In this document: positions 12,517-39,818 of the stretch, piece by piece
Numbering within the stretch: position 1 is the first letter of the stretch
Layout: the number at the start of each line of letters is the position of its first letter
DNA from: Fimbriimonas sp.
GTDB taxonomy: Bacteria > Armatimonadota > Fimbriimonadia > Fimbriimonadales > Fimbriimonadaceae
DNA: 63,945 nt
NCBI GenBank assembly: GCA_031292555.1
Contig: JARLGV010000068.1
Span: forward strand, 1-63,945
Direction: 5' to 3'
Notes under the pieces: generated by a model
Database searches by the model: none
What the model saw: the letters and a program-made list of their open reading frames with translations, nothing else
Told to the model about the DNA's origin: nothing
Translations under genes and position numbers: made by a program

Positions 12517-13293
12517 ATGGATCCGGCCACTCGATGGATTGCCATGAGTACCTATATTGACGAGCAGTTCGTTGTCCGATCTGTGGCGAACGGTCTGAAT
12601 CAGGATTCGGTCGCCGCCCTGCACGTGAATGGCTACTTTCATTTTCACTCCCCGGTTTTCACTTCCCGGCAGTTCAGCCATCTGCAGGATCGGTTTCTGG
12701 ACTATTTGGACATTTTCGGGGAGGAAGATCTGGAAGGCGTTCATCTGCGTGATGGCCAAGTCGTCGGACTGCTTACGTCCGACTCGGTTATGCGATGCTT
12801 GGTGCCCTTGCTCGGGCCGAACATCGGCATCTTCGATTCGCGCTTCGACTTTACTCCCGCGTTTGCCGGTCGCGCTTGCCGATGGCGTCGGGGGTCGACT
12901 CCGGTCCTAACATCGGAACCCGACCCTGAGAAGATGGTGACGATTTGGATCGCCATCGAGAGATCTTTTGAGGCGAACGGCGCGATGGTTTTGAAGGCGG
13001 GCACTCATCGCGATGCCAAGGGCGCTGGTTTTGAGTCAGCGATCGGCTCGATTCGTCGTGAATACAAGGATGTTGTCATGAATCTCGATCCAAACGAGTG
13101 CAGCTTCTACAGCCCCTATATCCTGCAATTTCATCGCGAGAACGGGTCTCCCTATCCCCGAGCAGGTTTGTCCGTCACCTACTTCTCGACCGACATCCAC
13201 CTGAACATCGACGATCCGCGAAACGGCAACGTGCGGCCCATATTGGCCCTTGGTCGCGATATCGGAGGCAATCGGTATGTGTCGCTCCGGTAA
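12517..13293 (+). CDS. PhyH-like (phytanoyl-CoA dioxygenase superfamily) protein, metal site degenerate
   Basis: A 258-residue protein whose central segment MVTIWIAIERSFEANGAMVLKAGTHR matches the PhyH core (typically vtvWiAl, then eNG, then vPGSH). The C-terminal FHRENGSPYPRAGLSV resembles the second-His and 2-oxoglutarate-Arg region. Where the iron-binding HxD should lie, the sequence is [10 protein letters not shown] with no His or Asp, so catalysis as an Fe(II)/2OG oxygenase is doubtful. ATG 12517 or 12544 could be the start; neither has a clear ribosome-binding site. It sits at the edge of the halogenase region, converging with the first halogenase gene. Confidence 0.55.
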   Translation: MDPATRWIAMSTYIDEQFVVRSVANGLNQDSVAALHVNGYFHFHSPVFTSRQFSHLQDRFLDYLDIFGEEDLEGVHLRDGQVVGLLTSDSVMRCLVPLLGPNIGIFDSRFDFTPAFAGRACRWRRGSTPVLTSEPDPEKMVTIWIAIERSFEANGAMVLKAGTHRDAKGAGFESAIGSIRREYKDVVMNLDPNECSFYSPYILQFHRENGSPYPRAGLSVTYFSTDIHLNIDDPRNGNVRPILALGRDIGGNRYVSLR

Positions 13294-13315
13294 CCGGCTT
13301 TGCCTTCGAGGTTCC

Positions 13316-15019
13316 TTACTGGATCGGAGGGTCTTGATTGGGCAGAATGCTCTGGTCCAGGTAGCTGACATTCATCAAGGGTCTCTGTGGGTTGAATGAG
13401 GCATCGACCCAACCGTCATTCGTCATCGCTTCCAATGCCTGAACGACTTCGACCATGGCACGATTCTGCTGCCCCATGTCTTCAAAGTCGTTTTGGATGC
13501 TTCGCCGTAACATTTCGAAGAGTGACACGACATCCGACGTGCGCTGCAGTAGGTCCACTACGATTTGGCATGCGCCGTCGATTGGAAGCGTGCGGCCGTC
13601 TCGAGTGTAACTCTGGGTCGGAAACACTCGTCCGTCGCGGTATTGGGCTCGATCTCGCCACGAGGCGCCGGCGAGGTTGAGCTTGAACACATTATTGGAC
13701 TGGAATGGTGAAGTCGCCTCGACGTCCGAAAGCACGGACCCGAGGGTCTTGATCGAGTTCAAAGTAAATCCACCGACGCCGAAAGACAGGCGCTCATCCA
13801 CAAATCCGCCCTGGGCGATCCAGCGCCATGCCGATTCGGGAGTGAGATCGAGTCCGACGTCATGGGCCAATTGCTTGGTGAAGTCTTGTAGGTCGGAGAA
13901 CTGTGCATTGGCCGAGTACCAGAACTCGGCGAACCGCATGTGCGTGCGCACCCGCTGCGACTGGCGAATTGCGAACTCGTCTTTGAGCCACTGCACGCGC
14001 TTGTTGCCGCGCTCGATTTCCAAGAGGGTGTAGGCGAGTTCGCGTCCTGCCGCGTGCGCCATCGTCATCCCGGCGGAGAGGATCGGATCGGCAAACCCCG
14101 CGCTTTCGCCGGCAAGGAACCAGTTGTCGCCGCATTGTCGCTCGGAAAGAAATGACCAGTCCTTTGTGGTGGTGAACTTGTGTTCACGAGTGGCGTTCTT
14201 GGTGAGAGCTGCGATGCGTTCTTCGGTTGCGACCGCCTCCAGATAGAGGTCCTCGGGCCGTCTACCAGAATTCTTGTAGTAGCTTGCCGGCACCACGAGC
14301 CCGATGCTGGTTCGGGTTGGGCCAAGCGGGATGAACCATAGCCAGCCGTATCCGAGGCTCATGACCTGGATCTTGGTTCCACCGATGCCGATTTTGACCG
14401 CCCACTCGGCGTTTTGCCAGTAGTCCCAAAAGGCGACGTTCTGTAGGGTGGTCGGACAGTCCATATTGACTCCCATCGCCCGACGTATGACGCCGACGTG
14501 CCCCGAGGCGTCGACGTAATGTTTGGCTTGCACCATCTCACCCGTCGCAAGCTCAATTGCGGTGACCCGGTCGCCCTGACGATGGACTTTGGCGGCTCTT
14601 GTTCCCTGGCGAACGACGGCGCCTCTTGACTCTGCATGATCCAGCAGGATCTTGTCGTAGATCGATCGGTCCACCTGGAAGGCGGTGCCGCGGCGCTGTC
14701 CCTCGTATTTGGCCGGCCTCGGCTCGTCGACGAACAGATTCGAAGGGAAAAATTCGAAATCCCATAGTTCCGGCTTCTTGCCCCAACGGTTGGTAGATCC
14801 AATCTTGATGGGAAAGTTGGCGGCTTCAACCGTGTCCCAAACCCCCATTTCGTGAAGGACGGACGAAATGCCGGGAAGCATGCTTTCGCCAATGTGATCT
14901 CGCGGAAAGACCTCCTTTTCGAAGATCCCCACCGAGATTGCCGGGTTGTATTTCTTGATGAGGGTGCCGGTTGTCGATCCTGCCGGGCCTCCTCCGATAA
15001 TAGCTACGTCGAGTTCCAT
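13316..15019 (-). CDS. Flavin-dependent halogenase-like protein, subfamily A (A1)
   Basis: A 567-residue FAD enzyme. The N-terminus has the dinucleotide motif VAIIGGGPAGS. Lys72 in FPIKIGSTNRWG is placed like the catalytic Lys of flavin halogenases, and WLWFIP at residues 226-231 is an intact WxWxIP halogenase motif. GESAGFADPILSAGMT is the second FAD motif. A tail of about 150 residues (roughly 410-567) extends past the usual core. The predicted reaction is FADH2/O2/halide-dependent halogenation; the substrate is unknown and no flavin reductase is nearby. It is likely the last gene of a leftward run from the deacetylase and sulfotransferase genes, with a structured leader at 15033-15079. Confidence 0.85.
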   Translation of the reverse strand: MELDVAIIGGGPAGSTTGTLIKKYNPAISVGIFEKEVFPRDHIGESMLPGISSVLHEMGVWDTVEAANFPIKIGSTNRWGKKPELWDFEFFPSNLFVDEPRPAKYEGQRRGTAFQVDRSIYDKILLDHAESRGAVVRQGTRAAKVHRQGDRVTAIELATGEMVQAKHYVDASGHVGVIRRAMGVNMDCPTTLQNVAFWDYWQNAEWAVKIGIGGTKIQVMSLGYGWLWFIPLGPTRTSIGLVVPASYYKNSGRRPEDLYLEAVATEERIAALTKNATREHKFTTTKDWSFLSERQCGDNWFLAGESAGFADPILSAGMTMAHAAGRELAYTLLEIERGNKRVQWLKDEFAIRQSQRVRTHMRFAEFWYSANAQFSDLQDFTKQLAHDVGLDLTPESAWRWIAQGGFVDERLSFGVGGFTLNSIKTLGSVLSDVEATSPFQSNNVFKLNLAGASWRDRAQYRDGRVFPTQSYTRDGRTLPIDGACQIVVDLLQRTSDVVSLFEMLRRSIQNDFEDMGQQNRAMVEVVQALEAMTNDGWVDASFNPQRPLMNVSYLDQSILPNQDPPIQ

Positions 15020-15032
15020 GATATGACGGCCT

Positions 15033-15079
15033 GCGAGCTTTGCCTTGCTTGCTTCTTCCGACCAAGCGAAGCAACTCGC
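15033..15079 (-). promoter_or_regulatory. Predicted structured leader before halogenase A1
   Basis: The plus-strand sequence GCGAG...CTCGC closes a structure with an inner perfect 7-bp stem (TTGCTTC with GAAGCAA). It ends 13 nt before the A1 start codon. It could be a translational control element or an attenuator between the sulfotransferase and halogenase genes. No U-tract follows. Prediction by eye only. Confidence 0.35.
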
Positions 15080-15138
15080 GGTTAAGGGAAGGCTCCCAGT
15101 TTAAACCGATCTGCCGGAGGGTGCCAAGGTCCCCGCAG

Positions 15139-16908
15139 CTATTCGGTCACATCGGCAAGCTCGGCAAGGGGCCCAAGCCATGGTTCGTATCGTCGCCATC
15201 GTTCGGTCGATGAGCGATAGATCGGCTGGCGAGCTTGCCAGAAACTGGGGGTCTGGATCCGCCGCGGGTTCATCTCCGGATGCAGGCACCCATCATCCCA
15301 CTCGAGCCCGCAGAATTCGACCATGCGTCTACCGTGCGTCTCTGGGTCGGTCACAAGATCCTCGTAGACGATCTCCGTATAGCGGTCGGTTGGCAGGACG
15401 CTGCGCCAGTGTTTACTGATCGTAGCGTACTCGCGGTAGGCCTTGACTATGCTGTTCCGATCGCTAACGAAGGGAGCCCGGGCGCTCATCGGCGTCGTCC
15501 AAATCGAAAGAGCGGTGTCGATCGGATTTCTCTTCACGCGTATGATCCGAATATTCGGAAAGGCAAGGAAGAGTGAGCCCACCGACATGAAATTGCTGGG
15601 ATTCTTGTCGACCACGCGTTCGAAGCCGGGCGCGATCGAACGAAGGATCTCCTCATATTCCCTCGCACATGCCAGGAGCCTTTGCGGATGCACACGCAAC
15701 CCCATATGATCGACAAAAGACGGCTCGTTCTCGCCCCAGTAATACTGCTCGCCGGCGCCGCCGACTTTGGGATGGCAGGTGAGCATCTGCTCAACGAGAG
15801 TCGTACCCGATCGGATCATGCCCACCACCAGAATCGGTACCCGGGAAGTGACGCCGATGTTGCCCCAGTTTTTGAGGTTCTCAAGCGTGAAGAGCCTAAT
15901 GGTGGCATCGACTACCGCATGCACGACATCCATATTGAATGCGGGACCCACACGAGTTTCTTCGCGCAGCGCGTTTGCCCGATCGAACCACCCGATCGCC
16001 TGCTCGAAGTCGCCGAGATCGTCGTGAGCCTTGCCCAATGCATACAGCACACTCACTCGGTCGTCGTTCGAGAGACTTGAGCGCTCAATCAATGCCTTCA
16101 TCTGGCTGACAAGATTGTCGTCTCCAGCCTTGAGCTTGCGGCAATAGGCTAGCGCCCGATAGGCTTCGCCTTGGTCCGGCTTAAGGGCGATTGATTCCTC
16201 CAGTTCTGCAACCGTGCGATCAAATTGGCCGACCGTTCCGAAGGCGAACGCCTTGGTCAAGTGAAGCGACCATGACGGTTCATCAAGTTCCGCGGCACGC
16301 TGCCAGTGAACCTCGGCCTCGGCAGTCTTGTCTTGCTCGGTTAGGAGGCGAGCGAGCAAAACGTGGGCGCCGGATAGGTTCGGATCGAGTTCGATGGCTT
16401 TTCGGCAGAAGGTCACCGCGTCCACGACTCGCCCCGATTCCCGTTCGAGGTCAGCGAGAATCAAATAACCTTGGGCATTCGGCGCGGCAGGCAGAACGTG
16501 CCGGAGGATCTGCGCGGCGCTCCTTTCCCGATGAGTCGCGACTAGAGATTCTGCCAGACCGAAGGCGGCTTCGTAGGCGGACGGATTGATTTGGAGAGCG
16601 GCCTGAAACTGCGGAATAGCATCGAAATGGTGACCCATGCTCGCCAGGGTTTTTGCGAGAGCCGCTCGCGAGGCGGCTTGGTTGGGATCGCAATTCACCG
16701 ATTGATTCAGGTGGTGAGCGGCGACTTGAAGTCGTCCCGTTCCTGCCTCGACCAGTCCCAGAAGCAGAAGCGCCTGCGGATCGTGGGGGTTGGCGCCAAG
16801 CGCCTTGTGGAGGAGTCCCTCGGCATCTAGGAGCTTTCCGGCTTGATAGAGCCTCTGTGCTTCCGCCTTGTGGACCTGGGCGGCTTCGTTTGGACGAGGT
16901 TTTGACAT
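15139..16908 (-). CDS. TPR-repeat sulfotransferase (ST1)
   Basis: A 589-residue two-part protein. Residues 1-330 are TPR-like repeats (for example EGLLHKALGANPHDPQALLL, FQAALQINPSAYEAAFGLAE, CRKAIELDPNLSGAHVLLAR). Residues 355-580 form a PAPS-dependent sulfotransferase: the 5'-phosphosulfate loop is VVGMIRSGTTLVEQML (RSGTT 366-370) and the 3'-phosphate region is IIRVKRNPIDTALSIW. It should transfer sulfate from PAPS to an unknown acceptor, with the TPR part probably binding a protein or peptide. It lies 5 bp after the deacetylase stop on the same strand, so the two are almost certainly cotranscribed. Confidence 0.9.
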   Translation of the reverse strand: MSKPRPNEAAQVHKAEAQRLYQAGKLLDAEGLLHKALGANPHDPQALLLLGLVEAGTGRLQVAAHHLNQSVNCDPNQAASRAALAKTLASMGHHFDAIPQFQAALQINPSAYEAAFGLAESLVATHRERSAAQILRHVLPAAPNAQGYLILADLERESGRVVDAVTFCRKAIELDPNLSGAHVLLARLLTEQDKTAEAEVHWQRAAELDEPSWSLHLTKAFAFGTVGQFDRTVAELEESIALKPDQGEAYRALAYCRKLKAGDDNLVSQMKALIERSSLSNDDRVSVLYALGKAHDDLGDFEQAIGWFDRANALREETRVGPAFNMDVVHAVVDATIRLFTLENLKNWGNIGVTSRVPILVVGMIRSGTTLVEQMLTCHPKVGGAGEQYYWGENEPSFVDHMGLRVHPQRLLACAREYEEILRSIAPGFERVVDKNPSNFMSVGSLFLAFPNIRIIRVKRNPIDTALSIWTTPMSARAPFVSDRNSIVKAYREYATISKHWRSVLPTDRYTEIVYEDLVTDPETHGRRMVEFCGLEWDDGCLHPEMNPRRIQTPSFWQARQPIYRSSTERWRRYEPWLGPLAELADVTE

Positions 16909-16913
16909 GACGG

Positions 16914-17885
16914 TCAGGAGAGGGTAGCGCGTCGCAAAGTGTGCTTGAGGTTCATCGTCTTATCGACGATCTTGTCGGCGCTGAGCCCAAGTCGATGGGG
17001 TGGCCAACCGGTTGCGCCTCGAAGCGAGGCCGATGTACGACTCTCGAAATGGGCGAAATCCTCTGTGGATGGGGTTTCGAATCGCCAGTCCATTCGGACT
17101 GTGTCGTCGACTCCGATGACCCTGTATATCTCTTTGATTCTGCCGAGAAACTCGCGGAGGTTGTACTTTGAGCGCTTGTACACATCATCGGAAACGGGCT
17201 GGACGAATTCGGGCTCGGCGGGGGTTCTGCCGAAGTAGTAGGGCTTGTCCCAGTACTCGTTGTGGCGGAACTTGGTCGGATGGCCAACAAATACGCCGAT
17301 CCAGGGCTGATCAATCGTCTCGATACTGCGCAGAACTCGTTCGACCGCTTCCGAAGCCCGCCGGTCGTCTGCCCAATCGGTTTCAGAGATGCTGAGAGCC
17401 TGGGGGAGGGCTAGAACACCGTTGAATTCGTGGACCGCATGATCCGGCAACTCTGTCATGGCGTAGGCATATGCGGGAACTCCTAGCCGTTTAAGCGTAT
17501 CGGTTATCTCGGGTGACCACGTATTTCCCCCGCCTCCCCAAAAGATGGGATTCCGGCCGAACAAGTCGCAGAAGGCTTCGAAGCCTTGCCGCTCCTCCGA
17601 ATAAGCCGCCTCGCAGCCCTCATCGAACGAAAGATCGGCAAGCAACTCCATCGTCGTCGGGTGAAAGGAGTGCCGGTTGGTATGGAGCCCCAGCGCATGG
17701 GGTTTGTACGCTTCCGCAACGTCGATCCGAGAGCGTTGTTTGAGCGTGCGGCACTTCTCGCCGGTAAGGCAAAACGAACCTCGAACTCCCTGGTCCGCAA
17801 AGAGCCGGGGAAAGTCCAGCGCGGCATCGTCGGCAAGTGGATTGATCGGATCCTCGACGTCCATGAACAGGGAGACCGCTTTCAT
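16914..17885 (-). CDS. NodB-like polysaccharide deacetylase-family protein
   Basis: A 323-residue protein with the polysaccharide deacetylase signature: SLFMDVEDP (catalytic base and metal Asp, D9/D12) and LGLHTNRHSFHPT (metal His68 and His72 in HxxxH). A FWGGGGNTWSPEI segment and a later GVFVGHPTKF segment, which could hold the C-terminal catalytic His, fit the family. It probably hydrolyses an N- or O-acyl group from a carbohydrate-like substrate; there is no signal peptide. It heads the leftward run (deacetylase, sulfotransferase, halogenase A1). The 165-bp gap to halogenase B1 is a divergent promoter region. Confidence 0.8.
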   Translation of the reverse strand: MKAVSLFMDVEDPINPLADDAALDFPRLFADQGVRGSFCLTGEKCRTLKQRSRIDVAEAYKPHALGLHTNRHSFHPTTMELLADLSFDEGCEAAYSEERQGFEAFCDLFGRNPIFWGGGGNTWSPEITDTLKRLGVPAYAYAMTELPDHAVHEFNGVLALPQALSISETDWADDRRASEAVERVLRSIETIDQPWIGVFVGHPTKFRHNEYWDKPYYFGRTPAEPEFVQPVSDDVYKRSKYNLREFLGRIKEIYRVIGVDDTVRMDWRFETPSTEDFAHFESRTSASLRGATGWPPHRLGLSADKIVDKTMNLKHTLRRATLS

Positions 17886-18011
17886 CGCTCTCTATTGTGA
17901 CTGGTCGACCTTTCTATCGGACGTGCGGGAGGTATGGGCAGGGTCATTGGCGGCTTTGGACCAAACGGTGGTTCGCTACATGTTTCGTCTGTGCGATCGA
18001 ACGGGTTCCTA

Positions 18012-18050
18012 TATAATTGGTTTTAGGGCCAACCTCGGCCCGGGTTGGCC
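18012..18050 (+). promoter_or_regulatory. -10 element and leader hairpin before halogenase B1
   Basis: A perfect TATAAT lies at 18012-18017. The leader then contains a perfect 8-bp stem (GGCCAACC 18027-18034 with GGTTGGCC 18043-18050, 8-nt loop) whose last base touches the ATG at 18051. There is no Shine-Dalgarno and no clear -35. The hairpin would bring the start codon to the base of a stem. Confidence 0.55.
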
Positions 18051-19784
18051 ATGACCAAATCCGTAGACGTACTTATCATCGGCGGCGGACCAGCAGGGAC
18101 CACGGTCGGATCTCTGCTTCGACGTTACAGTCCCCATTTGAGGGTTCTGATTGTCGAGAGGGAGCAATTTCCAAGGGACCACATTGGTGAGAGCCAATTG
18201 CCGGCGATCTGTAAGGTGCTGAACGAAATCGGCGTGTGGGACAAGGTGGAGGCGGCCGGATTCCCGATCAAGATCGGCAGCACCTATCGCTGGGGCCGGA
18301 CCGATGAGCTTTGGCAGGTCAACTTCCTGACCGACGACCTACAAGAGCAGCCGCGCCCTAATAAATTCGAGGGACAAAGGGCTCGGACGGCCTTTCAAGT
18401 TGATCGAAGCATCTACGACAAGATCCTATTGGATCATTCGAGAGAAGTTGGGTGCGAGGTCATCGAGAATATGAGAGTCACCGAGGTACTGCGAGACGGC
18501 GATCGGATCCTTGGTGTAAGAGTGGCTCCAACTAAAGCCGGTCCTGAGGAAGCAGAGACAGTCACCGCCCGATTTTACGTGGACGCTTCCGGAGTATCCG
18601 GGATTATTCGTCGGTCCATGGATGTCGAAGTGGACTCTCCGACGACTCTACGCAACATAGCGCTATACGACTACTGGCAGGACGCGGAGTGGGCGGAGAC
18701 GATCTGTCGCAGCGGTACTCGGGCTCAGATCATGAGTATCGGCTGGGGGTGGCTCTGGTATATCGCGATCACCTCGACGCGAACGTCGATCGGCTTGGTG
18801 ACGCCGGCGAGCTATCTCAAATCCTGTGGCAAGAAACCGGAAGACCTCTATCTAGAAGCGATTGCCGCCGAACCGAGGATTTCAAAGCTGGTCGGGAACG
18901 CCCGACGAGAGAAGCTCTTCCAAACGACGAAGGACTGGAACTATATTTCCGACCGGCTCGCCGGCGAGAACTGGTTCCTTGTAGGGGATGCATGCGGATT
19001 CGCGGATCCGATTTTGACGGCCGGGATGACGCTTGCCCAAGTCGGAGCGCGAAAAGTCGCTTATACGATTCTCGAATTGGAACGCAAGGAACTCGACCCA
19101 GGCTGGTTGCGAAGCGAATACACGCGTACTCACCGGTCGAACATTATCCAGCACATAAGGTTTGCGGAGTTTTGGTACTCGTCGAACGGCTGTTTTACTG
19201 ACCTGCAGGAAAACTGCAAGCAAATCGCTCAAGATGCGGGGCTCGACCTATCGCCTGACAATGCGTTTCGGTGGCTCGGCACGGGCGGATTCGCTTCCGA
19301 CGTTCTGGCGGACGAGGAGGCCAACATCTTCGGCTTCCAGAGCGCCCGCGTAATCATCAGCCGGTTCACCGGTCTCCCCATGACTTGGTCGGTCACCCAG
19401 AACAATCGGTTCAAACTAGACCTGGTAGGCGCCGTGCCGGACACGATCGCATATTATCAGGGTGGCCGGGTGATCTCAGTCAAGTGCTACAAGCGGGGCG
19501 AGAAAATACTTCCGCTTAACGGTCCCAACCAGTTCGTGTTCTCGATCCTGAATCAAGAGTCGGATGCCACCACGATCGCCCGTCACTTCACTCACTTCTT
19601 TAAGTCGCGACCGCGTGACTTCCCGAACTATGGGGCGGCATACCAGAAGGCGTTCGAGGTGCTCGAGACGATGATTTCGGAGGGTTGGGTGACGGCGTCG
19701 GTCAACAAGGCTCGCCCATTCATACCTCTCGGCGATCCAAACACCAAGTCCGCCGTCCAGGCGTCCACCAGCGAGGAAGGATAA
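18051..19784 (+). CDS. Flavin-dependent halogenase-like protein, subfamily B (B1)
   Basis: A 577-residue paralogue of A1. Visible: VLIIGGGPAGTT (FAD), Lys74 in FPIKIGSTYRWG (halogenase Lys position), and GDACGFADPILTAGMT. The halogenase WxWxIP motif is altered to WLWYIA (residues 234-239), so the Pro is lost. Subfamily B differs from A in the region after the Lys (RWGRTDELWQVNF rather than RWGKxPELWDFEF) and in YDYWQDAEWAETI. The start is ATG 18051, not the upstream in-frame TTG, because the leader hairpin ends at 18050. ST2 follows 73 bp downstream. It may be a halogenase or a halogenase-derived monooxygenase. Confidence 0.82.
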   Translation: MTKSVDVLIIGGGPAGTTVGSLLRRYSPHLRVLIVEREQFPRDHIGESQLPAICKVLNEIGVWDKVEAAGFPIKIGSTYRWGRTDELWQVNFLTDDLQEQPRPNKFEGQRARTAFQVDRSIYDKILLDHSREVGCEVIENMRVTEVLRDGDRILGVRVAPTKAGPEEAETVTARFYVDASGVSGIIRRSMDVEVDSPTTLRNIALYDYWQDAEWAETICRSGTRAQIMSIGWGWLWYIAITSTRTSIGLVTPASYLKSCGKKPEDLYLEAIAAEPRISKLVGNARREKLFQTTKDWNYISDRLAGENWFLVGDACGFADPILTAGMTLAQVGARKVAYTILELERKELDPGWLRSEYTRTHRSNIIQHIRFAEFWYSSNGCFTDLQENCKQIAQDAGLDLSPDNAFRWLGTGGFASDVLADEEANIFGFQSARVIISRFTGLPMTWSVTQNNRFKLDLVGAVPDTIAYYQGGRVISVKCYKRGEKILPLNGPNQFVFSILNQESDATTIARHFTHFFKSRPRDFPNYGAAYQKAFEVLETMISEGWVTASVNKARPFIPLGDPNTKSAVQASTSEEG

Positions 19785-19857
19785 TCGATACAAGTTGCCT
19801 TCGGAGTTGGCCCAATGGCTCTGTTCAATCTGCGCGCTGGACTGGCGACAAGACCTG

Positions 19858-21615
19858 ATGGAGACTAGCCCGCAAGCCCTGTACGATCGAAGCCGCGCAG
19901 CCTTTCGCAAGGGTGACCTTCGCGAAGCGGCGCTGTTTGCCGACCAGTTAGTGCTTGCGACAGGGGAATCGTCTCAGGCGATGGCATGGGCAGCGCGCAT
20001 TCGGCTCGCCGGGCGCGACTGGAGCGGTGCGCTGGCGATCGTCCTTCAAGCGATCAAGAAGGAGCCAACTTCCGAGTTGCACGGCCTGCTTGGCCAGACG
20101 CAAGTGGGCCTTGGCGAGTACGAATTGGCGGAGGCGGCTTTTAGCGAGGCGAGTAGGTTGCAGCCCGACTACGCACCTTGGAAGTATCAACGTGCGCTTG
20201 TGCTGTTACGGCTGCAGCGCGATTTTGAGGCAATGGACCTTCTCAGACAGGGCGCCGCAATTACACCAAACGCGAACTGCCTCTTTCGCCTCGCCGAACT
20301 GGAACTCAACTATAGCGACCCGACAGCGTCGCTCGCGGCCGCAGAAAGAGCGTTGACTATGGAGCCATCGGACGCGATGGGGCACACGGTGGCCGCCAGC
20401 GGTTTGCAGGATCTAGGGCGCGAGGCAGAAGCAGACGCTCATTGGGAATCCGCCAGATCGCTGGCAAAACCAGATTCGGAGCAGGTCGATCTTATTCGGG
20501 CGCGATACTTTGTGCAGCGAGGGGACATGGACAAGGGCGCCGCCATTTTGGAGGACCTGATCGACCGCTATCCCGATCGTCCGGCCGCCTATGCCCGTCT
20601 CGCGGCAAACAAGAAGTTCAATTCTGAGGATCTGAAGTTGGTCGACAAGATGACCGATCTCACCGAGTCGGGGCAGTTGGCCGACGCCGACCGCATGCAG
20701 ATCGAGTATTCGCTTGGTAAAGCGCATGACGACCTGGGTCAATACGAATCTGCAATGTCTCACTTCAATCGGGCCAATCGACTCGCCCGTCGGTCGATCG
20801 AAGAACGAGGCGGATTCAACCGAGACGAGTTTTCCGACATCATTGCGATTCGAAAGCATGTCCTCTGCGCCGAATCGGTCGCCAAGCTCCGTCGAATCGG
20901 GAATCCAACGGAGATGCCGGTCTTCGTGATGGGAATGATGAGGTCAGGCACAACGCTTGCGGAACGAATCCTTGCGAGCCATCCGGCGGTTCAGGGGGCG
21001 GGGGAGCAGAGTCTGTGGATCAATGCCGATCATCGTCTGACGGATTTCAGGGCTCACCGGCTGAACGAACTGCTCGTTCACGAGACCTCAGCCCTGTATA
21101 TGAGGTTGCTTGCGCGCTATGCGAACGGTGCCGATAGGGTCGTGGATAAGCAGCCTGGCAACTTGATCCTTGCAGGCATCCTTCATATCGCATTCCCTAA
21201 CGCGAAGATCGTCTACATGCGCCGGAACCCGGTTGACAACGCGATTTCGATATGGAATACCCATATACGGACGACGACCCCCTTTGTCAACGACAAATCG
21301 AACATCGTGTACGCCTTCAAACAATATGACGATCTGTTCGGCCATTGGAAGCAGGTCATTCCGGCGGATCGGTTACTGGAAGTCTCCTACGAAGGATTGA
21401 TTCTCGACCGCGAAAACACGACACGAAGGATTCTTGAGTTCTGTGGGCTTCCGTGGAGCGATAGTTGCCTGGAGCCGGAGAAGCACAAGGGGTTAGTGAC
21501 GACTCCGAGCGTATGGCAGGTGAGGCAATCGGTGTACCGGACTTCTGTCGATCGGTGGCGAAACTACGAGCCGTGGCTCGACGAGTTCCGAGAGCTGCTT
21601 CAAGGCGAGTCGTGA
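19858..21615 (+). CDS. TPR-repeat sulfotransferase (ST2)
   Basis: A 585-residue paralogue of ST1 with the same layout: TPR-like helices (AAEAAFSEASRLQPDYAPWK-like units) for the first 300 residues, then a PAPS sulfotransferase with VMGMMRSGTTLAERIL (RSGTT 362-366) and IVYMRRNPVDNAISIW. The C-termini of both end in a matching VWQ/FWQ-RQ-YR-S-WRRYEPWL segment. The start is set at METSPQALYDRS, where the repeat region begins; a TTG 63 bp upstream is also open. It sits between halogenases B1 and A2, mirroring ST1 beside A1. Confidence 0.88.
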   Translation: METSPQALYDRSRAAFRKGDLREAALFADQLVLATGESSQAMAWAARIRLAGRDWSGALAIVLQAIKKEPTSELHGLLGQTQVGLGEYELAEAAFSEASRLQPDYAPWKYQRALVLLRLQRDFEAMDLLRQGAAITPNANCLFRLAELELNYSDPTASLAAAERALTMEPSDAMGHTVAASGLQDLGREAEADAHWESARSLAKPDSEQVDLIRARYFVQRGDMDKGAAILEDLIDRYPDRPAAYARLAANKKFNSEDLKLVDKMTDLTESGQLADADRMQIEYSLGKAHDDLGQYESAMSHFNRANRLARRSIEERGGFNRDEFSDIIAIRKHVLCAESVAKLRRIGNPTEMPVFVMGMMRSGTTLAERILASHPAVQGAGEQSLWINADHRLTDFRAHRLNELLVHETSALYMRLLARYANGADRVVDKQPGNLILAGILHIAFPNAKIVYMRRNPVDNAISIWNTHIRTTTPFVNDKSNIVYAFKQYDDLFGHWKQVIPADRLLEVSYEGLILDRENTTRRILEFCGLPWSDSCLEPEKHKGLVTTPSVWQVRQSVYRTSVDRWRNYEPWLDEFRELLQGES

Positions 21616-21766
21616 CCGGACGTCGTCAGTCCCCTTAGTCAGCGTTTGACGCGGATCGAGGGCTTGCAGACTCATTTCCAAAATGGCGCCTTGTCCTGTA
21701 GAGTTATTGATAGGATTGGCGCAGGTCGATGCGAATAGCCTCTGATCTGCACCGAGGATATTTGTA

Positions 21767-23464
21767 ATGCAATACGATGTGGCTATTATCGGCGGCGGCC
21801 CGGCGGGCACTACGGCGGGCACTCTTCTAAAAAAATACCAGCCTGATCTCAACGTTGTGATCCTTGAGCGAGAGAAGTTCCCACGAGATCATATTGGCGA
21901 AAGTCAGCTGCCTGCGATCTCGATGATCCTCCACGAGATGGGTGCGTGGGACAAGATCGAGGCTGCCAACTTTCCGATCAAGATTGGCTCGACAAACCGA
22001 TGGGGGAAAGTGCCGGAACTGTGGGACTTTGAGTTCTATCCGTCTGAAAAGTTCGAGGAACAAGAGCGGCCCGCGAAGTTCGAGGGGCAGCGACGGTTCA
22101 CTGCATTCCAGGTGGACCGCTCTATCTACGATAAGATTCTGCTCGACCACGCCGCCGAGTGTGGAGTCGAAGTTAGGGAGCAAACGACAGTCAAGGAGAT
22201 TCTCAAGACAGGCGATCGGGTCGATGGTCTCACGTTGGCCGACGGCGATGTGGTTACTGCGAAGCACTATCTAGACGCCTCGGGCCACACGGGGATTCTC
22301 CGTCGAGCGATGGGCGTCACTTGCGAGTATCCGTCGACCCTGCAGAACATTGCCCTCTGGGACTACTGGCAGAATGCGGAATGGGCGGTAGAGATTGGGG
22401 TCGGCGCCACCAAGATCCAGGTGATGAGCCTTGGGTATGGCTGGATCTGGTTCATTCCGCTGGGGCCCACGAGAACCAGTATCGGCTTGGTCGTGCCGGC
22501 TGAATACTACAAGGAACGCGGGATACGCCCGGAAGACCTTTACATGGAAGCGCTGGGACAAGAAGAGCGGATCTCTGGCCTGATCACGAATGCCACGAGG
22601 GAGGGGAAGTTCACCTCGACAAAGGACTGGTCATTCCTATCTAGCCGACAGAGCGGGGAGAATTGGTTCCTAATCGGAGAAAGCGCCGGCTTCGCCGACC
22701 CGATTTTATCGGCGGGGATGACGATGGCGCATTGCGGCGGTAGGGAAGTTGCCTGTACGATCTTGGAACTCGAAAAGGGGCAACATGACTCTGCCTGGCT
22801 AAGAGAGCAGTTCGATCTCAGACAGTCACAGCGCGTGACCAGTCATATACGTTTCGCCGACTTTTGGTACACCGCCAACGCCCAGTTCCAGGATATCAAG
22901 GAATGCATCCAGCGTATCGCTGGGGATGCCGGACTGGATTTGACTCCCGACCATGCCTGGGATTGGCTCGCAAGGGGAGGATTCATCGACGAGGACCTAT
23001 CCACCGGAGTCGGTGGCTTTTCGCTCCTTACGGTCAAAGGGCTATCGACGGTGCTTGCGGATCTGCCGCAGCGGGATCCCCTGAGCGAGAACAACATGTT
23101 CAAGCTAAACTTGGCGGGAGCATCGGTCAAGGAGCGAGCCGAATACTCGAATGGAGGGATCAAGGCCTGTAAGTGCTATGTAAGAGGGGCCAAGGTGCTC
23201 CCGGTAGACGGGCGATTCAAGATGGTGATTGGAATGCTCCAACGGTCTTCATCGATGGACCACATCATTCCGATGATTACTCAATTCGTCGAGTCCTTCC
23301 CCGATTCGAATGTTCGGTATCGGGCATTCACCAAGACTATGGAGGCTTTTGAGGCACTTATCGCAGACGGGTGGGTTATCGCGTCCTGCGATCCTAACAA
23401 GCAACTCTATCGTATCGAGTATCACGACCAAACGATCCGACTGAATAAGGACACCCTCCATTGA
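21767..23464 (+). CDS. Flavin-dependent halogenase-like protein, subfamily A (A2)
   Basis: A 565-residue close paralogue of A1. FAD motif VAIIGGGPAGTT; Lys72 in FPIKIGSTNRWG; intact WxWxIP as WIWFIP (226-231); GESAGFADPILSAGMT. The tail of about 150 residues again has a LPVDGRFKMVIGMLQRSS segment and an EALIADGWVIAS segment like A1. The ATG at 21767 is preceded by GAGGATATTTGTA, a possible weak ribosome-binding site. The 151-bp gap from ST2 contains a possible stem of GCAGGTC with GATCTGC. With WxWxIP and Lys both intact, A2 is among the best candidates for real halogenation here. Confidence 0.86.
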   Translation: MQYDVAIIGGGPAGTTAGTLLKKYQPDLNVVILEREKFPRDHIGESQLPAISMILHEMGAWDKIEAANFPIKIGSTNRWGKVPELWDFEFYPSEKFEEQERPAKFEGQRRFTAFQVDRSIYDKILLDHAAECGVEVREQTTVKEILKTGDRVDGLTLADGDVVTAKHYLDASGHTGILRRAMGVTCEYPSTLQNIALWDYWQNAEWAVEIGVGATKIQVMSLGYGWIWFIPLGPTRTSIGLVVPAEYYKERGIRPEDLYMEALGQEERISGLITNATREGKFTSTKDWSFLSSRQSGENWFLIGESAGFADPILSAGMTMAHCGGREVACTILELEKGQHDSAWLREQFDLRQSQRVTSHIRFADFWYTANAQFQDIKECIQRIAGDAGLDLTPDHAWDWLARGGFIDEDLSTGVGGFSLLTVKGLSTVLADLPQRDPLSENNMFKLNLAGASVKERAEYSNGGIKACKCYVRGAKVLPVDGRFKMVIGMLQRSSSMDHIIPMITQFVESFPDSNVRYRAFTKTMEAFEALIADGWVIASCDPNKQLYRIEYHDQTIRLNKDTLH

Positions 23465-23485
23465 TTTGGCGGGCGTAGGCATCGG

Positions 23486-23550
23486 TTGTCTGAGCCGTGG
23501 AACTATCCTATAATGGCTTCGTTCGGGGATAGCCCCGGAATCCCGTGCCC
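23486..23550 (+). promoter_or_regulatory. Promoter and leader hairpin of halogenase B2
   Basis: A -35-like TTGTCT at 23486-23491, a 17-bp spacer and a perfect TATAAT at 23509-23514 form the best promoter in the cluster. The leader contains a hairpin CGGGG-ATAG-CCCCG (23524-23537, extendable by two pairs) close to the ATG at 23551, with no Shine-Dalgarno. The arrangement parallels B1. Confidence 0.7.
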
Positions 23551-25242
23551 ATGACATACGACGTACTTATCATCGGCGGCGGACCTGCCGGAAGCTCGGT
23601 CGGCGCCCTGCTCCGCCGATACAATCCTTCTCTCAAGGTCCTGATTATCGAGCGTGAGCGCTTTCCCCGCGATCACGTGGGCGAGAGCCAACTGCCGGCG
23701 ATCTGTTCCGTTCTGAACGAGATGGGCGCCTGGGACAAGGTCGAAGCGGCCGGGTTCCCGATCAAAGTCGGCAGCACCTATCGATGGGGACGTACCGACG
23801 ACCTCTGGCAGGTTAATTTCCTTCAGGAGGATATCGAGGACCGGCCTCGTCCTGGTCAGTACCGGGGGCAGCGTGCCCGAACCGCATTTCAGGTCGATCG
23901 ATCCATCTACGACAAGATCCTCTTGGAACATGCCCAGTCGATGGGATGCGAAGTGATCCAGAACGCAAAGGTTACAGAGATCCTAAGGGACGGCGACTGT
24001 ATCACTGGAGTGAAAACCGCACCGTCCGATCCCACCGATGTTCAAGCGGGGGAGTCAGTACCGGAACTGCTGACCGCGCGGTACTACGTGGACGCTTCCG
24101 GGGGCTCGGGCATCTTGCGCCGGGCTATGGACGTTCAAATCGAGTCACCGTCCACTCTTAGAAATATCGCGCTCTACGACTATTGGCAAGATGCTGAATG
24201 GGCGGAGACGATCGGAAAGCACGGAACACGCGCTCAGATAATGAGTATCGGTTGGGGCTGGCTCTGGTTCATCCAGATCACTCAAACGAGGACATCTATC
24301 GGCTTGGTCACGCCGGCGGAGTACTACAAATCGTGTGGAAAGAAGCCGGAAGACCTCTACATGGAGGCAGTGTCAATCGAGCCCAGAATCTCCAAACTGG
24401 TTCAAAGCGCGCGCTGCGAGCACAAGTTCCACGCTACCAAGGACTGGAACTACCTTACCGACCGTCTCGCAGGGGACAACTGGTTCTTGGTTGGCGACGC
24501 ATGCGGCTTTGCCGATCCAATATTGACGGCAGGCATGACTTTGGCTCAGGTTAGTGCGCGCAAGGTCGCATACACGATCATCGAGCTTGACCGCAAAGAA
24601 GTGGACGAAGCATGGCTGAAGACTGAATATACGCGCACCCACCGTTCGAACATCTATCAGCACATAAGGTTTGCCGAGTATTGGTATTCGGCTAATGGCT
24701 GCTTCACCGACCTGCAGGACAACTGTCGCCAAATCGCCGCGGATGCGGGCCTCGACCTATCACCCGATGCAGCATTTCGATGGCTAGGGACAGGCGGCTT
24801 CGCATCGGATGTCTTGGCGTCCGAGGATGCAAACATCTTTGGGTTACGTATGGCAAAGGTCATAGCGGGACGTTTCGGCGGCGCCCCGGCTGGCTGGGAG
24901 GTCGTGAAGAAGAACAAGTTTCAGATGAATCTTGCTGGAACTACGCGGGACACCATGGCCATCTATCTGGATGGGCGAGTGAATGCAGTTAATTGCCTTA
25001 GGCGTGGCAACAAGGCGCTTCCGCTCGTTGGCAACAACCAGATGATCTATTCGATCTTGAAGTTCGAATCGGATGCCACAACGGTTGGCCAGCTAATGGC
25101 AAACCACATTTCGAAGAATCCTGGGCTCTTTCCCGAGCCGCAAAGGGCTTTCGACAAGGGCCTCGAGGTTCTGGAGACGATGATTGTCGACGGATGGGTG
25201 ACCGCGAGCATAAACAAAAAGCGGCCATTCCTAGATATCTAG
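23551..25242 (+). CDS. Flavin-dependent halogenase-like protein, subfamily B (B2)
   Basis: A 563-residue paralogue most like B1: VLIIGGGPAGSS, Lys72 in FPIKVGSTYRWG, RTDDLWQVNFL, and GDACGFADPILTAGMT. The WxWxIP motif reads WLWFIQ (237-242), so the Pro is replaced as in B1. The C-terminal tail has LPLVGNNQMIYSILKFESDA and VLETMIVDGWVTAS, again the winged-helix-like pattern. It has its own promoter (23486-23514) and is the last gene before a strong terminator. ATG 23551 is preferred to the in-frame GTG two codons earlier because of the leader hairpin. Confidence 0.82.
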   Translation: MTYDVLIIGGGPAGSSVGALLRRYNPSLKVLIIERERFPRDHVGESQLPAICSVLNEMGAWDKVEAAGFPIKVGSTYRWGRTDDLWQVNFLQEDIEDRPRPGQYRGQRARTAFQVDRSIYDKILLEHAQSMGCEVIQNAKVTEILRDGDCITGVKTAPSDPTDVQAGESVPELLTARYYVDASGGSGILRRAMDVQIESPSTLRNIALYDYWQDAEWAETIGKHGTRAQIMSIGWGWLWFIQITQTRTSIGLVTPAEYYKSCGKKPEDLYMEAVSIEPRISKLVQSARCEHKFHATKDWNYLTDRLAGDNWFLVGDACGFADPILTAGMTLAQVSARKVAYTIIELDRKEVDEAWLKTEYTRTHRSNIYQHIRFAEYWYSANGCFTDLQDNCRQIAADAGLDLSPDAAFRWLGTGGFASDVLASEDANIFGLRMAKVIAGRFGGAPAGWEVVKKNKFQMNLAGTTRDTMAIYLDGRVNAVNCLRRGNKALPLVGNNQMIYSILKFESDATTVGQLMANHISKNPGLFPEPQRAFDKGLEVLETMIVDGWVTASINKKRPFLDI

Positions 25243-25330: not shown

Positions 25331-25546
25331 CTATTTGGCTTTGCTACCAGGCTGCAAGGGCGTCGAGCCGGGAATGGCTCCCGGCTTCGGCGCGGAGCCC
25401 GCCGCCGCATCGCCTCCATTATTGGCCTTGGGACCAGGCGCGGAGGATGCTGTCGCGTCGGACGATTGGCTAGAATCGCCGCTATTACAGCCGCACAGAT
25501 AGAGACACGAGGCTACAAGCAAGGCAGTGAGGAACACGTTCCTCAA
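25331..25546 (-). CDS. Small lipoprotein (copy 1)
   Basis: A 71-residue protein with a lipoprotein signal: a hydrophobic stretch VFLTALLVASCLYL then LCGC, whose last Cys fits a lipobox. The mature part is low-complexity and rich in Ser, Ala, Gly and Pro and ends PGSKAK. The start is inferred to be TTG at 25546, which overlaps the TGA stop of the upstream pseudopilin (TTGA), implying translational coupling; an ATG 15 bp further upstream is the alternative. It is paralogous in layout and C-terminus to the gene at 26921-27130. Function unknown. Confidence 0.65.
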   Translation of the reverse strand: MRNVFLTALLVASCLYLCGCNSGDSSQSSDATASSAPGPKANNGGDAAAGSAPKPGAIPGSTPLQPGSKAK

Positions 25547-26397
25547 TTGACGTTGCCCCATAGGTACTGGTTCGTGTTGGTGAAGACGACTGCGCTATCC
25601 GCGATGTTCGGATTCCAGTTCGTGCCAGCGGCCATTGCTCCTGGCGGCATCACCTTCACGTGTCCGTCGCAGAAGCTGACGATGCCGTCGCCTGCCTTGC
25701 GAATTGAGTTCCAACCCGTGTAAGCGCCCGCGATTCGGTTGCCTTGCATCGGAGTGGATTCCCACCAGCCGGATCCCCAGTTGTCGATGCAGAGCGGATT
25801 GATCGAATAGCACTCCGGAGCTTCAACCGTGTAGGGCGAAGCCAAGAGCGTTCCCGCCCCCCACCAGTACTCGCTGTTCTCCTGGGCAGTGGAGTGAGCG
25901 GAGACCATTACCGTCTCGGACGGTCGGCTGAGCGAAGTGAACGAAACCGGCGTGCGGACCCACTTGTTAGGGCCGGTGCCACTCGTCGATGTGATTGGGC
26001 TCAAAGCGGTGTAGTTGTAGCCGTACTCCGGATTGTATGAATACCAGCCCGAATCGGATCCGCCCGGATTTGGGGTTGTTTGAGGATCTTCCAGGATGCC
26101 ACCATTCTTGGTGTACGGAAGAATCTCATAGCTCCAGGGGCTGAATGCGCTGCTCCAGGAACCGTACCAGTAAAGTGCGTCGTGTTGACCCCAGATACAA
26201 TCGACCGGCGCCATATCGTCAGCATCGGCAGAGTACATGAGGACCGCAAGTGACTGCTGCTTCTCGTTGCTTACCGAAGCAGTAGCCTTTGCGGCTGCTT
26301 TTGCTTGAGCAAACACCGGGAAGAGAATCGCTGCGAGAATCGCAATGATTGCGATCACAACCAATAATTCAATAAGAGTAAATGCTTTTCGGCCCAA
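25543..26397 (-). CDS. Type II secretion-type pseudopilin with H-X9-DG-like C-terminus (copy 1)
   Basis: A 284-residue protein with a class III prepilin signal: GRKAFTLIELLVVIAIIAILAAILFPVFAQ, with cleavage before F and Glu at +5, followed by a hydrophobic helix. The C-terminus has FCDGHVKVMPPG, the motif typical of the large Planctomycetes/Armatimonadota pseudopilin family. It is expected to sit in the inner membrane and be processed by a prepilin peptidase (not in this window). The start is TTG with a strong AAAGGAGG 5 nt upstream. Its lipoprotein partner overlaps the stop. Confidence 0.9.
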   Translation of the reverse strand: MGRKAFTLIELLVVIAIIAILAAILFPVFAQAKAAAKATASVSNEKQQSLAVLMYSADADDMAPVDCIWGQHDALYWYGSWSSAFSPWSYEILPYTKNGGILEDPQTTPNPGGSDSGWYSYNPEYGYNYTALSPITSTSGTGPNKWVRTPVSFTSLSRPSETVMVSAHSTAQENSEYWWGAGTLLASPYTVEAPECYSINPLCIDNWGSGWWESTPMQGNRIAGAYTGWNSIRKAGDGIVSFCDGHVKVMPPGAMAAGTNWNPNIADSAVVFTNTNQYLWGNVN

Positions 26398-26868
26398 AGG
26401 AACCTCCTTTCGAGTCCGCGCAAGAGGGCCCCGCGCGTCGTTACATTATCAAAGAAAAGTTCGCCGTATGGAAGGTCTTTTTTTAGAATTTCCACAGGAA
26501 TTGGGGATGAAAGGACTGATCTGAATCGCATTACCCCTGGAATCGCCTCTCTTCCAGCATGTACTGCCATAGAATGGCTTCGCGTTGCGCGATGAATCGG
26601 TATATCGCCCAGGATGATTCGAATCCGGATCTCTTGTACGCCCCCCTATCTGCCCAATAGCGGAAGATCCTGGCGATACGATAGTGTACTTTGGATTTGT
26701 GTATATGTTATGCGCACTCTGCTAAAGAAATAGACCAATATATAGATAGGGATTTGGCCCCATGCTGGCTGAGCACGCCTATCGAGCGATTACCTGTGCG
26801 TTGCTCGGTCAATCGAACTCCGTCGGCTGGCCAGACCCTGAAGAAGTTGAGGTCCGGGCGAAAGAGCC
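26398..26868. other. Long intergenic region upstream of pseudopilin copy 1
   Basis: About 470 bp with no convincing gene on either strand. It holds the promoter of pseudopilin copy 1 (26445-26473) near its left edge and AT-rich patches around 26690-26750. I see no tRNA, repeat or mobile element in the remainder. Confidence 0.5.
26445..26473 (-). promoter_or_regulatory. Promoter of pseudopilin copy 1
   Basis: On the minus strand TTCCAT (-35 position) is followed by a 17-bp spacer and GATAAT (-10). The -10 lies 47 nt before the TTG start. The spacer contains GGCGAAC, which is shared with the promoter of copy 2. Confidence 0.55.
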
Positions 26869-26899
26869 GGTCCACGTTGCGATGAGTGCGACGTGGACC
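26869..26899 (-). terminator. Hairpin after lipoprotein copy 2
   Basis: GGTCCACGTTGC and GCGACGTGGACC form a 12-bp stem with one G-U pair and a 7-nt loop, 21 bp beyond the lipoprotein stop. On the minus strand it is followed only by a short CTCTTT, so the U-tract is weak. A terminator is likely. Confidence 0.6.
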
Positions 26900-26920
26900 G
26901 TGCTTGAACGTAACCGGCAG

Positions 26921-27130
26921 CTATTTGACTTTCGAGCCAGGTTCCTTGACGTCGACGGCGCCAGGGATTCTGCTTGGCGTGGGTGCGCCAGCCGCATTGG
27001 CACTCCCATTCTTCGCGGTTGGCGCTTGGCCGGATCCAGCCTGAGAGCCTGCTGTGTCGTCAGAGTGAGCGCAGCCTCCAATCAAGGTCGCGGCAATTGC
27101 GACGAACACGAGCAGACAACGCTTGCTCAC
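26921..27130 (-). CDS. Small lipoprotein (copy 2)
   Basis: A 69-residue protein: a basic N-terminus (SKR), hydrophobic LLVFVAIAATLIGGC with a lipobox-type LIGGC, then a flexible Gly/Ala/Pro/Ser-rich tail ending PGSKVK, as copy 1 ends PGSKAK. The GTG start at 27130 overlaps the TGA stop of pseudopilin copy 2 (GTGA), the same coupling as copy 1. The role is unknown; the fixed partnership suggests it works with the pseudopilin. Confidence 0.65.
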   Translation of the reverse strand: MSKRCLLVFVAIAATLIGGCAHSDDTAGSQAGSGQAPTAKNGSANAAGAPTPSRIPGAVDVKEPGSKVK

Positions 27131-27984
27131 TGAAAATTCCCCCACAGGTAGTTCTTGGAGTTGACCATCACCAGTTGGCTGTCAGCGATGTTCGGGTTCC
27201 AGTTCGTACCGGCGGCGAGTTGACCAGGCGGCATTGTCTTGACGTGACCGTCGCAGAAGCCGGCAATCGCATTTCCCGACTTCCGGAGCGAGTTCGAGCC
27301 GGTAAAGGCCCCCGCCGCCCGATTGTTCTCAAGCCAAGTGTTAGCGAGCCAGCCGCTTCCCCAGTTGTCGATACAAGTCGGAGCGATGTCATAGCAGTCA
27401 GGCGCTTCAACGGTATATGGCGAGATCAAGAGTGTTCCTGCATTCCACCAATACCAGCCAATATCTTCGTTCGCCGCGTTGTGGGCGCTCACCATAACGG
27501 TTTCCGATGGCCGGCTAACGGACGATAGCGACACCGGCGTTCGTATCCATTTGTTCGGACCGGTCCCACTAGTGGACGTGATTGGACTTAACGCAGTGTA
27601 GTTGTATCCGTATTCAGGATTGTAGGCGTACCATCCGGTATCGGATCCGCCAGGGTTTGGGCTGATTTGCGGGTCGTTAAAGATGGCTCCGTTCTTGGTA
27701 TATGGCGTCACCTCGTATGTCCACGGGCTAAATGCGCTGCTCCAAGAGCCGAACCAATACAGTGCGTCGTGTTGGCCCCAAATGCAGTCGACTGGCGCCA
27801 TATCGTCAACGTCAGAGGAATACATCAGGACGGCGAGCGACTGCTGTTTCTCGTTGCTTACGGAAGCGGTCGCCTTTGCGGCGGCCTTCGCTTGAGCGAA
27901 CACGGGGAACAGAATCGAGGCAAGAATCGCGATGATCGCGATGACAACCAATAATTCAATAAGCGTAAACGCTTTCTGGCACAT
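27127..27984 (-). CDS. Type II secretion-type pseudopilin with H-X9-DG-like C-terminus (copy 2)
   Basis: A 285-residue near-duplicate of copy 1. The prepilin helix and the stretch through NEKQQSLAVLMYS and DCIWGQHDALYW are almost identical; the middle and C-terminal parts are more varied (FCDGHVKTMPPG retained). ATG start with AGGGAGG 6 nt upstream. The gene and its lipoprotein partner repeat the layout of 25331-26397, so the pair arose by cassette duplication. The likely location is the inner membrane or a pseudopilus-like fibre. Confidence 0.9.
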   Translation of the reverse strand: MCQKAFTLIELLVVIAIIAILASILFPVFAQAKAAAKATASVSNEKQQSLAVLMYSSDVDDMAPVDCIWGQHDALYWFGSWSSAFSPWTYEVTPYTKNGAIFNDPQISPNPGGSDTGWYAYNPEYGYNYTALSPITSTSGTGPNKWIRTPVSLSSVSRPSETVMVSAHNAANEDIGWYWWNAGTLLISPYTVEAPDCYDIAPTCIDNWGSGWLANTWLENNRAAGAFTGSNSLRKSGNAIAGFCDGHVKTMPPGQLAAGTNWNPNIADSQLVMVNSKNYLWGNFQ

Positions 27985-39655: not shown

Positions 39656-39671
39656 TCGACTGGCTCCCACA

Positions 39672-39704
39672 GGGCGGCACTCCAATACGGGGTGCCGCCC
39701 TTTT
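39672..39704 (+). terminator. Intrinsic terminator after S53 peptidase 1
   Basis: GGGCGGCAC (39672-39680) pairs with GTGCCGCCC (39692-39700), followed by TTTT. A classic rho-independent terminator, 16 bp beyond the stop. Confidence 0.92.
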
Positions 39705-39818
39705 CGTTGGTCGACCTCACTGGATTTCGAACAACGGGCCGCGAATCTCGTCATGGATTCGGGTTGCGTTGGAATATCGGAGACCCGTTGCCAGCCAACC
39801 ATCCGAACGAGAACCAAG

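Follow-up and report, generated by a model that had tools for sequence, protein, structure and literature searches.

Two halogenase clades paired with TPR-sulfotransferases in Fimbriimonas: a possible cassette for modifying a ribosomal polypeptide

The stretch of DNA analysed here (the window) is one contig of 63,945 nucleotides from a Fimbriimonas genome of 6.46 Mb (Armatimonadota). Four halogenase-like genes, two TPR-sulfotransferase genes and a NodB-like ORF were located in it, with the same coordinates and strands as in an earlier sequence-only reading of this DNA. The halogenase region is adjoined at 25331-27984 by prepilin-lipoprotein pairs, which that reading had not reported. The features are the following:

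13316-15019, minus strand: A1, CmlS-like flavin-dependent halogenase (FDH) of the A clade; WLWFIP (WxWxIP kept), FADPILSAG
13373-13732, minus strand: C-terminal winged-helix domain of A1, RRE/PqqD-like by the predicted fold of the family
15139-16908, minus strand: ST1, TPR domain and Sulfotransfer_3 domain; RSGTT, GAGE and DK motifs
16914-17885, minus strand: NodB-like ORF, diverged; weak Pfam match, probably outside the cassette
18045-19784, plus strand: B1, CmlS-like FDH of the B clade; WLWYIA replaces WxWxIP, FADPILTAG
19365-19724, plus strand: C-terminal RRE-like winged-helix domain of B1
19795-21615, plus strand: ST2, TPR domain and protein-tyrosine-sulfotransferase-like domain
21767-23464, plus strand: A2, CmlS-like FDH of the A clade; WIWFIP, FADPILSAG; AlphaFold model with pLDDT 83
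23054-23410, plus strand: C-terminal RRE-like winged-helix domain of A2; bbb-aaa, isolated model with pLDDT 94.8
23545-25242, plus strand: B2, CmlS-like FDH of the B clade; WLWFIQ, FADPILTAG
24874-25233, plus strand: C-terminal RRE-like winged-helix domain of B2
25331-25561, minus strand: small lipoprotein of 76 aa, lipobox LCGC, adjoining prepilin 1
25543-26397, minus strand: prepilin 1, DUF1559-type prepilin-like protein (N_methyl), candidate substrate
26921-27145, minus strand: small lipoprotein of 74 aa, adjoining prepilin 2
27127-27984, minus strand: prepilin 2, DUF1559-type prepilin-like protein, 79% identical to prepilin 1

A scan for promoters and terminators had a yield no higher than in shuffled sequence.

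The four halogenases all matched the Pfam family Trp_halogenase (E-values 4e-27 to 4e-33), with identities of 61% between A1 and A2, 71% between B1 and B2 and about 50% between A and B. The genome holds 18 FDHs, which form one family with 44-100% identity. In a 251-genome sample of the phylum this family was detected in 26 genomes; those listed with a match share the window's genus, family or order. Phycisphaerales, Cyanobacteria and a few Proteobacteria are also represented among the best named matches. In a tree of 135 FDH sequences, the genus shows two large clades, one with A1/A2 and the other with B1/B2; the two subfamilies are real. B1 and B2 are sisters (support 99), A1, A2 and one relative form a trio (support 99), and the A clade as a whole has a moderate support of 92. 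The motif contrast following the Lys is exact in the four proteins (WGKKPELWDFEF and WGKVPELWDFEF in the A type versus WGRTDELWQVNF and WGRTDDLWQVNF in the B type), and it marks the A1/A2 and B1/B2 pairs only, not the entire clades.

The best full-length match of the A2 model is CmlS, the FADH2-dependent halogenase of chloramphenicol (PDB 3i3l), with the C-terminal winged-helix domain included (Foldseek E-value 8e-33; VIA Z 33.7 over 479 residues); the CndH/FasV/PltA group is matched as well (VIA Z 38.2 with CndH). This predicted common fold comes with identities of only ~23-33% to the window FDHs, which score 162-168 with the NCBIfam CmlS family against a cut-off of 900, and the chloramphenicol or carrier-protein context of CmlS is absent from the window. 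Lys72, Glu45 and Asp311 are invariant in 18/18 FDHs of the genome, B1 and B2 keeping the catalytic Lys72 of the P.K.G region; the same residues occupy the positions that we take to be the active-site Lys, Glu and FAD-linked Asp of the CmlS structure.

The co-occurrence of A, B and sulfotransferase genes was surveyed in 91 FDH loci from Fimbriimonas and relatives. A sulfotransferase was found within 3.5 kb in 10/10 loci containing both clades versus 11/81 of the others (Fisher test, 5.5e-8, drawing on all genomes with orthologous loci included), and in 0/6 loci with two tandem FDHs of one clade. Given this difference, the A/B/sulfotransferase association is real. A and B are thus not unrelated families which never accompany a TPR-sulfotransferase in other genomes, an outcome that would have told against the sequence-only reading. 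Six genomes (L017, L099, L106, L109, L111 and L117) have in common a cassette of A, one or two B genes and a sulfotransferase beside a prepilin; a second cassette type is present in two genomes (L010 and L120), the window represents a third type and L154 a fourth. Since the loci of one type are orthologous, the independent cases number about four. Restricted to the loci of the window's own genome, the comparison becomes 3/3 versus 3/8, which is not significant alone (P 0.18). In this genome, 12 of the 18 FDHs are located within 5 kb of a sulfotransferase, for 6% expected, and the clustering of halogenases with sulfotransferases is not due to chance.

ST1 and ST2 match the Pfam families TPR and Sulfotransfer_3 (E-values 3e-35 and 3e-40), about 36 Sulfotransfer_3 proteins being encoded in the genome. 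The best PDB matches of the ST2 domain are the protein-tyrosine sulfotransferases TPST1/2 (E-value 1.5e-13), whose PAPS-loop and catalytic Glu and Lys align with those of ST2; the corresponding RSGTT, Glu399 and Lys447 are invariant among nine sulfotransferases. In contrast to TPST1/2, ST2 is a bacterial TPR fusion, and the alignment covers about 200 residues at low identity. By sequence, the enzyme is of the protein type and closest to the protein-tyrosine sulfotransferases, which suggests peptidyl-tyrosine sulfation as the predicted activity. The sequence-only reading had also proposed that an A/B/sulfotransferase module was duplicated. A and B were indeed duplicated locally, and separately the prepilin-lipoprotein pair; the sulfotransferase was not duplicated along with them, since in the sulfotransferase tree ST2 groups with a sulfotransferase of other loci (100/100) and ST1 does not.

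Modelled alone, the C-terminal domain of A2 adopts the bbb-aaa arrangement, which is the strict RRE topology (PMC12710340). Among the first 20 rows obtained by VIA-align with this isolated domain, 11 are RRE proteins (Z 4.7-7.0); the RRE proteins matched are TbtB, TbiB1, MccB, lasso B1, ThcOx, PqqD and LynD, and QhpG was matched as well. All Z values of the isolated domain are below 8, PqqD does not figure in the 25-family list obtained with 92 FDH members at E<=1, and CmlS, which belongs to a small-molecule pathway, has the same winged-helix domain. Structure-based RRE matches in general include many false positives (PMC12710340), and one NRPS oxidase is known to retain the remnant of an RRE (PMC8795117). 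Because of these low Z values, of the domain shared with CmlS and of the NRPS-oxidase remnant, the predicted RRE-like domain favours a peptide substrate but does not prove it.

In six cyanobacterial loci, an ORF of 62-102 aa with HTWTENLDIA-type repeats is located 70-270 bp upstream of the FDH. In five other loci, from Okeania, Alteromonadaceae, Halieaceae and Phycisphaerales relatives, an exported P-domain protein carrying the motif HTWxGD(L/I), more precisely HTW(S/I)GD(L/I), lies beside the FDH, several of these proteins having PEP-CTERM-type tails:

L048:9566-9799, L050:8828-9079, L062:9436-9744: (HTWTENLDIA)n ORFs
L067:9537-9725, L069:9444-9725, L080:6969-7187: (HTWTENLDIA)n ORFs
L029:9217-9813, L058:9210-9878, L059:9100-9879: P-domain proteins
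L079:11803-12477, L085:3204-4163: P-domain proteins

The cyanobacterial repeat resembles the motif of the P-domain proteins, and this likeness is the best sign that the FDH family may recognise a Trp-containing polypeptide. Many Phycisphaerales loci have neither a repeat-peptide nor a P-domain neighbour. The (HTWTENLDIA)n peptide together with its FDH is a candidate for an unreported RiPP bearing halogenated Trp. The nearest functional precedents are published RiPP halogenases such as ChlH (PMC12518702) and a proteusin brominase (PMC10858898, PMC10286304). The peptidyl-Trp halogenases of RiPP pathways (ChlH of chlorolassin, the SrpI brominase and MibH) act on a ribosomal peptide, as proposed here, and the cyanobacterial FDHs likewise adjoin a Trp-repeat precursor-like peptide. 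MibH is a distant fold match only to the window FDH, ChlH and SrpI are likened to it by function and not by sequence, and unlike the RiPP halogenase loci, the window, where we looked for a repeat precursor peptide, contains none that could be recognised. A conserved protein of 247 aa with no good Pfam match precedes the cyanobacterial repeat peptides.

About 99 DUF1559-type prepilin-like proteins are encoded in the Fimbriimonas genome. A prepilin is found within 3 kb at 56/91 FDH loci, mostly less than 400 bp away, and a small lipoprotein gene often sits between the FDH and the prepilin. Of the seven FDH clusters on the single-contig chromosome of the relative G008, six have a prepilin no more than 3 kb away, where 0.9 would be expected (rotation P 1e-4). 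Using a 5 kb limit, 28 of the 36 sulfotransferases of the window's genome lie near a prepilin (15% expected, P ~2e-16), as do 12/14 FDHs and 14/22 sulfotransferases of a third genome, G004 (13% expected). At 31 of the 91 FDH loci (Fimbriimonadales) no prepilin occurs within 5 kb, and many of these loci adjoin antiporter-like or housekeeping genes. We compared the FDH-adjacent prepilins with 40 distant ones and observed no enrichment of Trp, Tyr or any motif tested. As the prepilins thus carry no sequence signature of modification, it is their adjacency that points to them as putative substrates. Co-divergence of FDHs and prepilins was rejected as a proof of specificity: the Mantel correlation, 0.62 overall, drops to -0.03 among divergent FDHs, so that it reflects joint inheritance only.

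Another set of FDHs of the family (L104, L131, L153, L158, L164, L165, L167, L168 and L172) is located away from prepilins and sulfotransferases, beside a conserved gene identified by eye as cation/proton-antiporter-like. Some prepilin genes of the genome stand together with genes for a small lipoprotein, a LacI-type regulator and a glycoside hydrolase, an arrangement possibly serving polysaccharide capture.

Our main reading, to which we assign a probability of roughly 45%, is that the region is a duplicated cassette modifying a ribosomal polypeptide by halogen and sulfate, a prepilin or lipoprotein being the likeliest substrate. A and B would be CmlS-type halogenases of different specificity, the RRE-like domains of which would bind the polypeptide. 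In the cytoplasm, with FADH2, O2 and halide, they would introduce halogen into its aromatic side chains (Trp or Tyr), and the TPR-fused TPST-type sulfotransferase would use PAPS to sulfate one or several tyrosines of the same polypeptide. In Fimbriimonas, the best candidate would be the exported DUF1559 prepilin-like protein encoded alongside, or the small lipoprotein paired with it, later to be displayed on the cell surface. We infer a polypeptide substrate from the TPST-like sulfotransferase, the RRE-like domain and the repeat peptides and P-domain proteins beside the relatives, and a ribosomal polypeptide common to halogenases and sulfotransferase appears rather probable. That this polypeptide is the prepilin or its lipoprotein is more doubtful. 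Still more speculative is a wider, so far undescribed bacterial system, in which RRE-bearing FDHs would halogenate, and TPST-like sulfotransferases sulfate, aromatic residues of pilin-like and P-domain surface proteins that the cell itself exports, the cyanobacterial HTW-repeat peptides being a RiPP offshoot based on the same recognition. In the light of the sulfotransferase type, the RRE-like fold and the repeat peptides, a modified polypeptide is more probable than the free halogenated natural product or glycan initially suggested for this region.

In a small-molecule pathway, the FDHs would halogenate a phenolic or pyrrolic unit, free or carrier-bound, and the sulfotransferase would sulfate its hydroxyl. 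The sequence relatives with structures (PltA, Mpy16, ChlB4, CmlS and CndH) mostly use carrier-bound or small substrates, and an adenylation/carrier gene is present at one B-clade FDH locus (L130:2949-7611, FDH beside an AMP-binding/PP-binding protein of 1340 aa), a possible case of carrier-bound halogenation. However, no carrier, NRPS or PKS gene was found among the window genes scanned or among the gene families recurring beside FDHs, and both the protein-tyrosine likeness of the sulfotransferase and the repeat peptides and exported proteins adjoining FDH relatives argue against such a pathway, which we regard as unlikely.

No better placed is the possibility that FDHs, sulfotransferases and prepilin-lipoprotein pairs are independently expanded families gathered in carbohydrate-use islands, as neighbours without shared chemistry. 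The large numbers of prepilin-like proteins and sulfotransferases in the genome, the LacI and GH16 genes surrounding FDH loci and the sulfotransferases found near prepilins without any FDH speak for it. Simple crowding is at odds, however, with the all-or-none presence of the sulfotransferase at A+B loci as opposed to same-clade pairs, and with the repetition of the same grouping with a prepilin in six genomes.

Within the proposed cassette, the B-type proteins might be aromatic hydroxylases or accessory proteins, only the A type being halogenases. WxWxIP is kept in A1, A2 and 168/176 family members and changed in B1 and B2, its proline being replaced in only 6/176; B1 and B2 moreover carry Thr for Ser in FxDPxxSxG. 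QhpG, a peptidyl tryptophan dihydroxylase of the same flavoprotein superfamily, is a distant relative, matched by fold, C-terminal part included, and by its NCBIfam family at 113-116 bits, under the cut-off of 240. Unlike QhpG, all window FDHs possess the halogenase Lys, and the A enzymes WxWxIP. As most B-clade members keep WxWxIP, its loss is not a trait of the B clade, being confined to B1, B2 and four other proteins, and a B type devoid of halogenase activity seems quite improbable.

The NodB-like ORF, which the sequence-only reading had counted as a deacetylase of the module, matches Polysacc_deac_1 below the Pfam cut-off (E-value 0.047, 14.1 bits for a cut-off of 23.1). Its gene is single-copy in 8/20 genomes of the genus, lies away from FDHs elsewhere and was found at 0/90 other FDH loci scanned, so that it probably drops out of the module. 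Tailoring of an exported surface polysaccharide by sulfation and other decoration, with this protein as deacetylase, would suit the carbohydrate-type neighbourhoods and the adjacency in the window, but is very improbable in view of the unlinked NodB-like gene in other genomes, the protein-type sulfotransferase, the window genes scanned, which include no cluster of glycosyltransferases, and the fact that aromatic halogenases are not known to act on sugars. The NodB-like protein shows 50-69% identity among several Fimbriimonas genomes, and most relatives are devoid of it. A PhyH-like gene (12517-13293; E-value 3e-4, just below the cut-off) was likewise considered as a module member and discarded, since none of the 90 further FDH loci from the genus and its relatives contains a homologue.

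We found no paper linking a halogenase with a prepilin or with Fimbriimonas, or describing this combination; a single one mentions both PEP-CTERM and halogenase, and it is a genome survey on an unrelated subject. If the main reading is correct, two kinds of protein modification would be new, the enzymatic halogenation of a bacterium's own structural proteins at the surface and the sulfation of tyrosines in pilin-like proteins, and part of the large, unexplained Fimbriimonas expansion (18 FDHs, ~36 sulfotransferases and ~99 prepilin-like genes in a single genome) would acquire a function. If only its peptide-directed part holds, the family would still provide new peptide halogenases, for which HTWTENLD is a candidate recognition motif already at hand.

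Elsewhere in the window, an AAA protein resembling proteasomal ATPases, with OB domains, is encoded at 30189-31895, and a tandem pair of proteins with pro-kumamolisin activation domains at 37457-42035.
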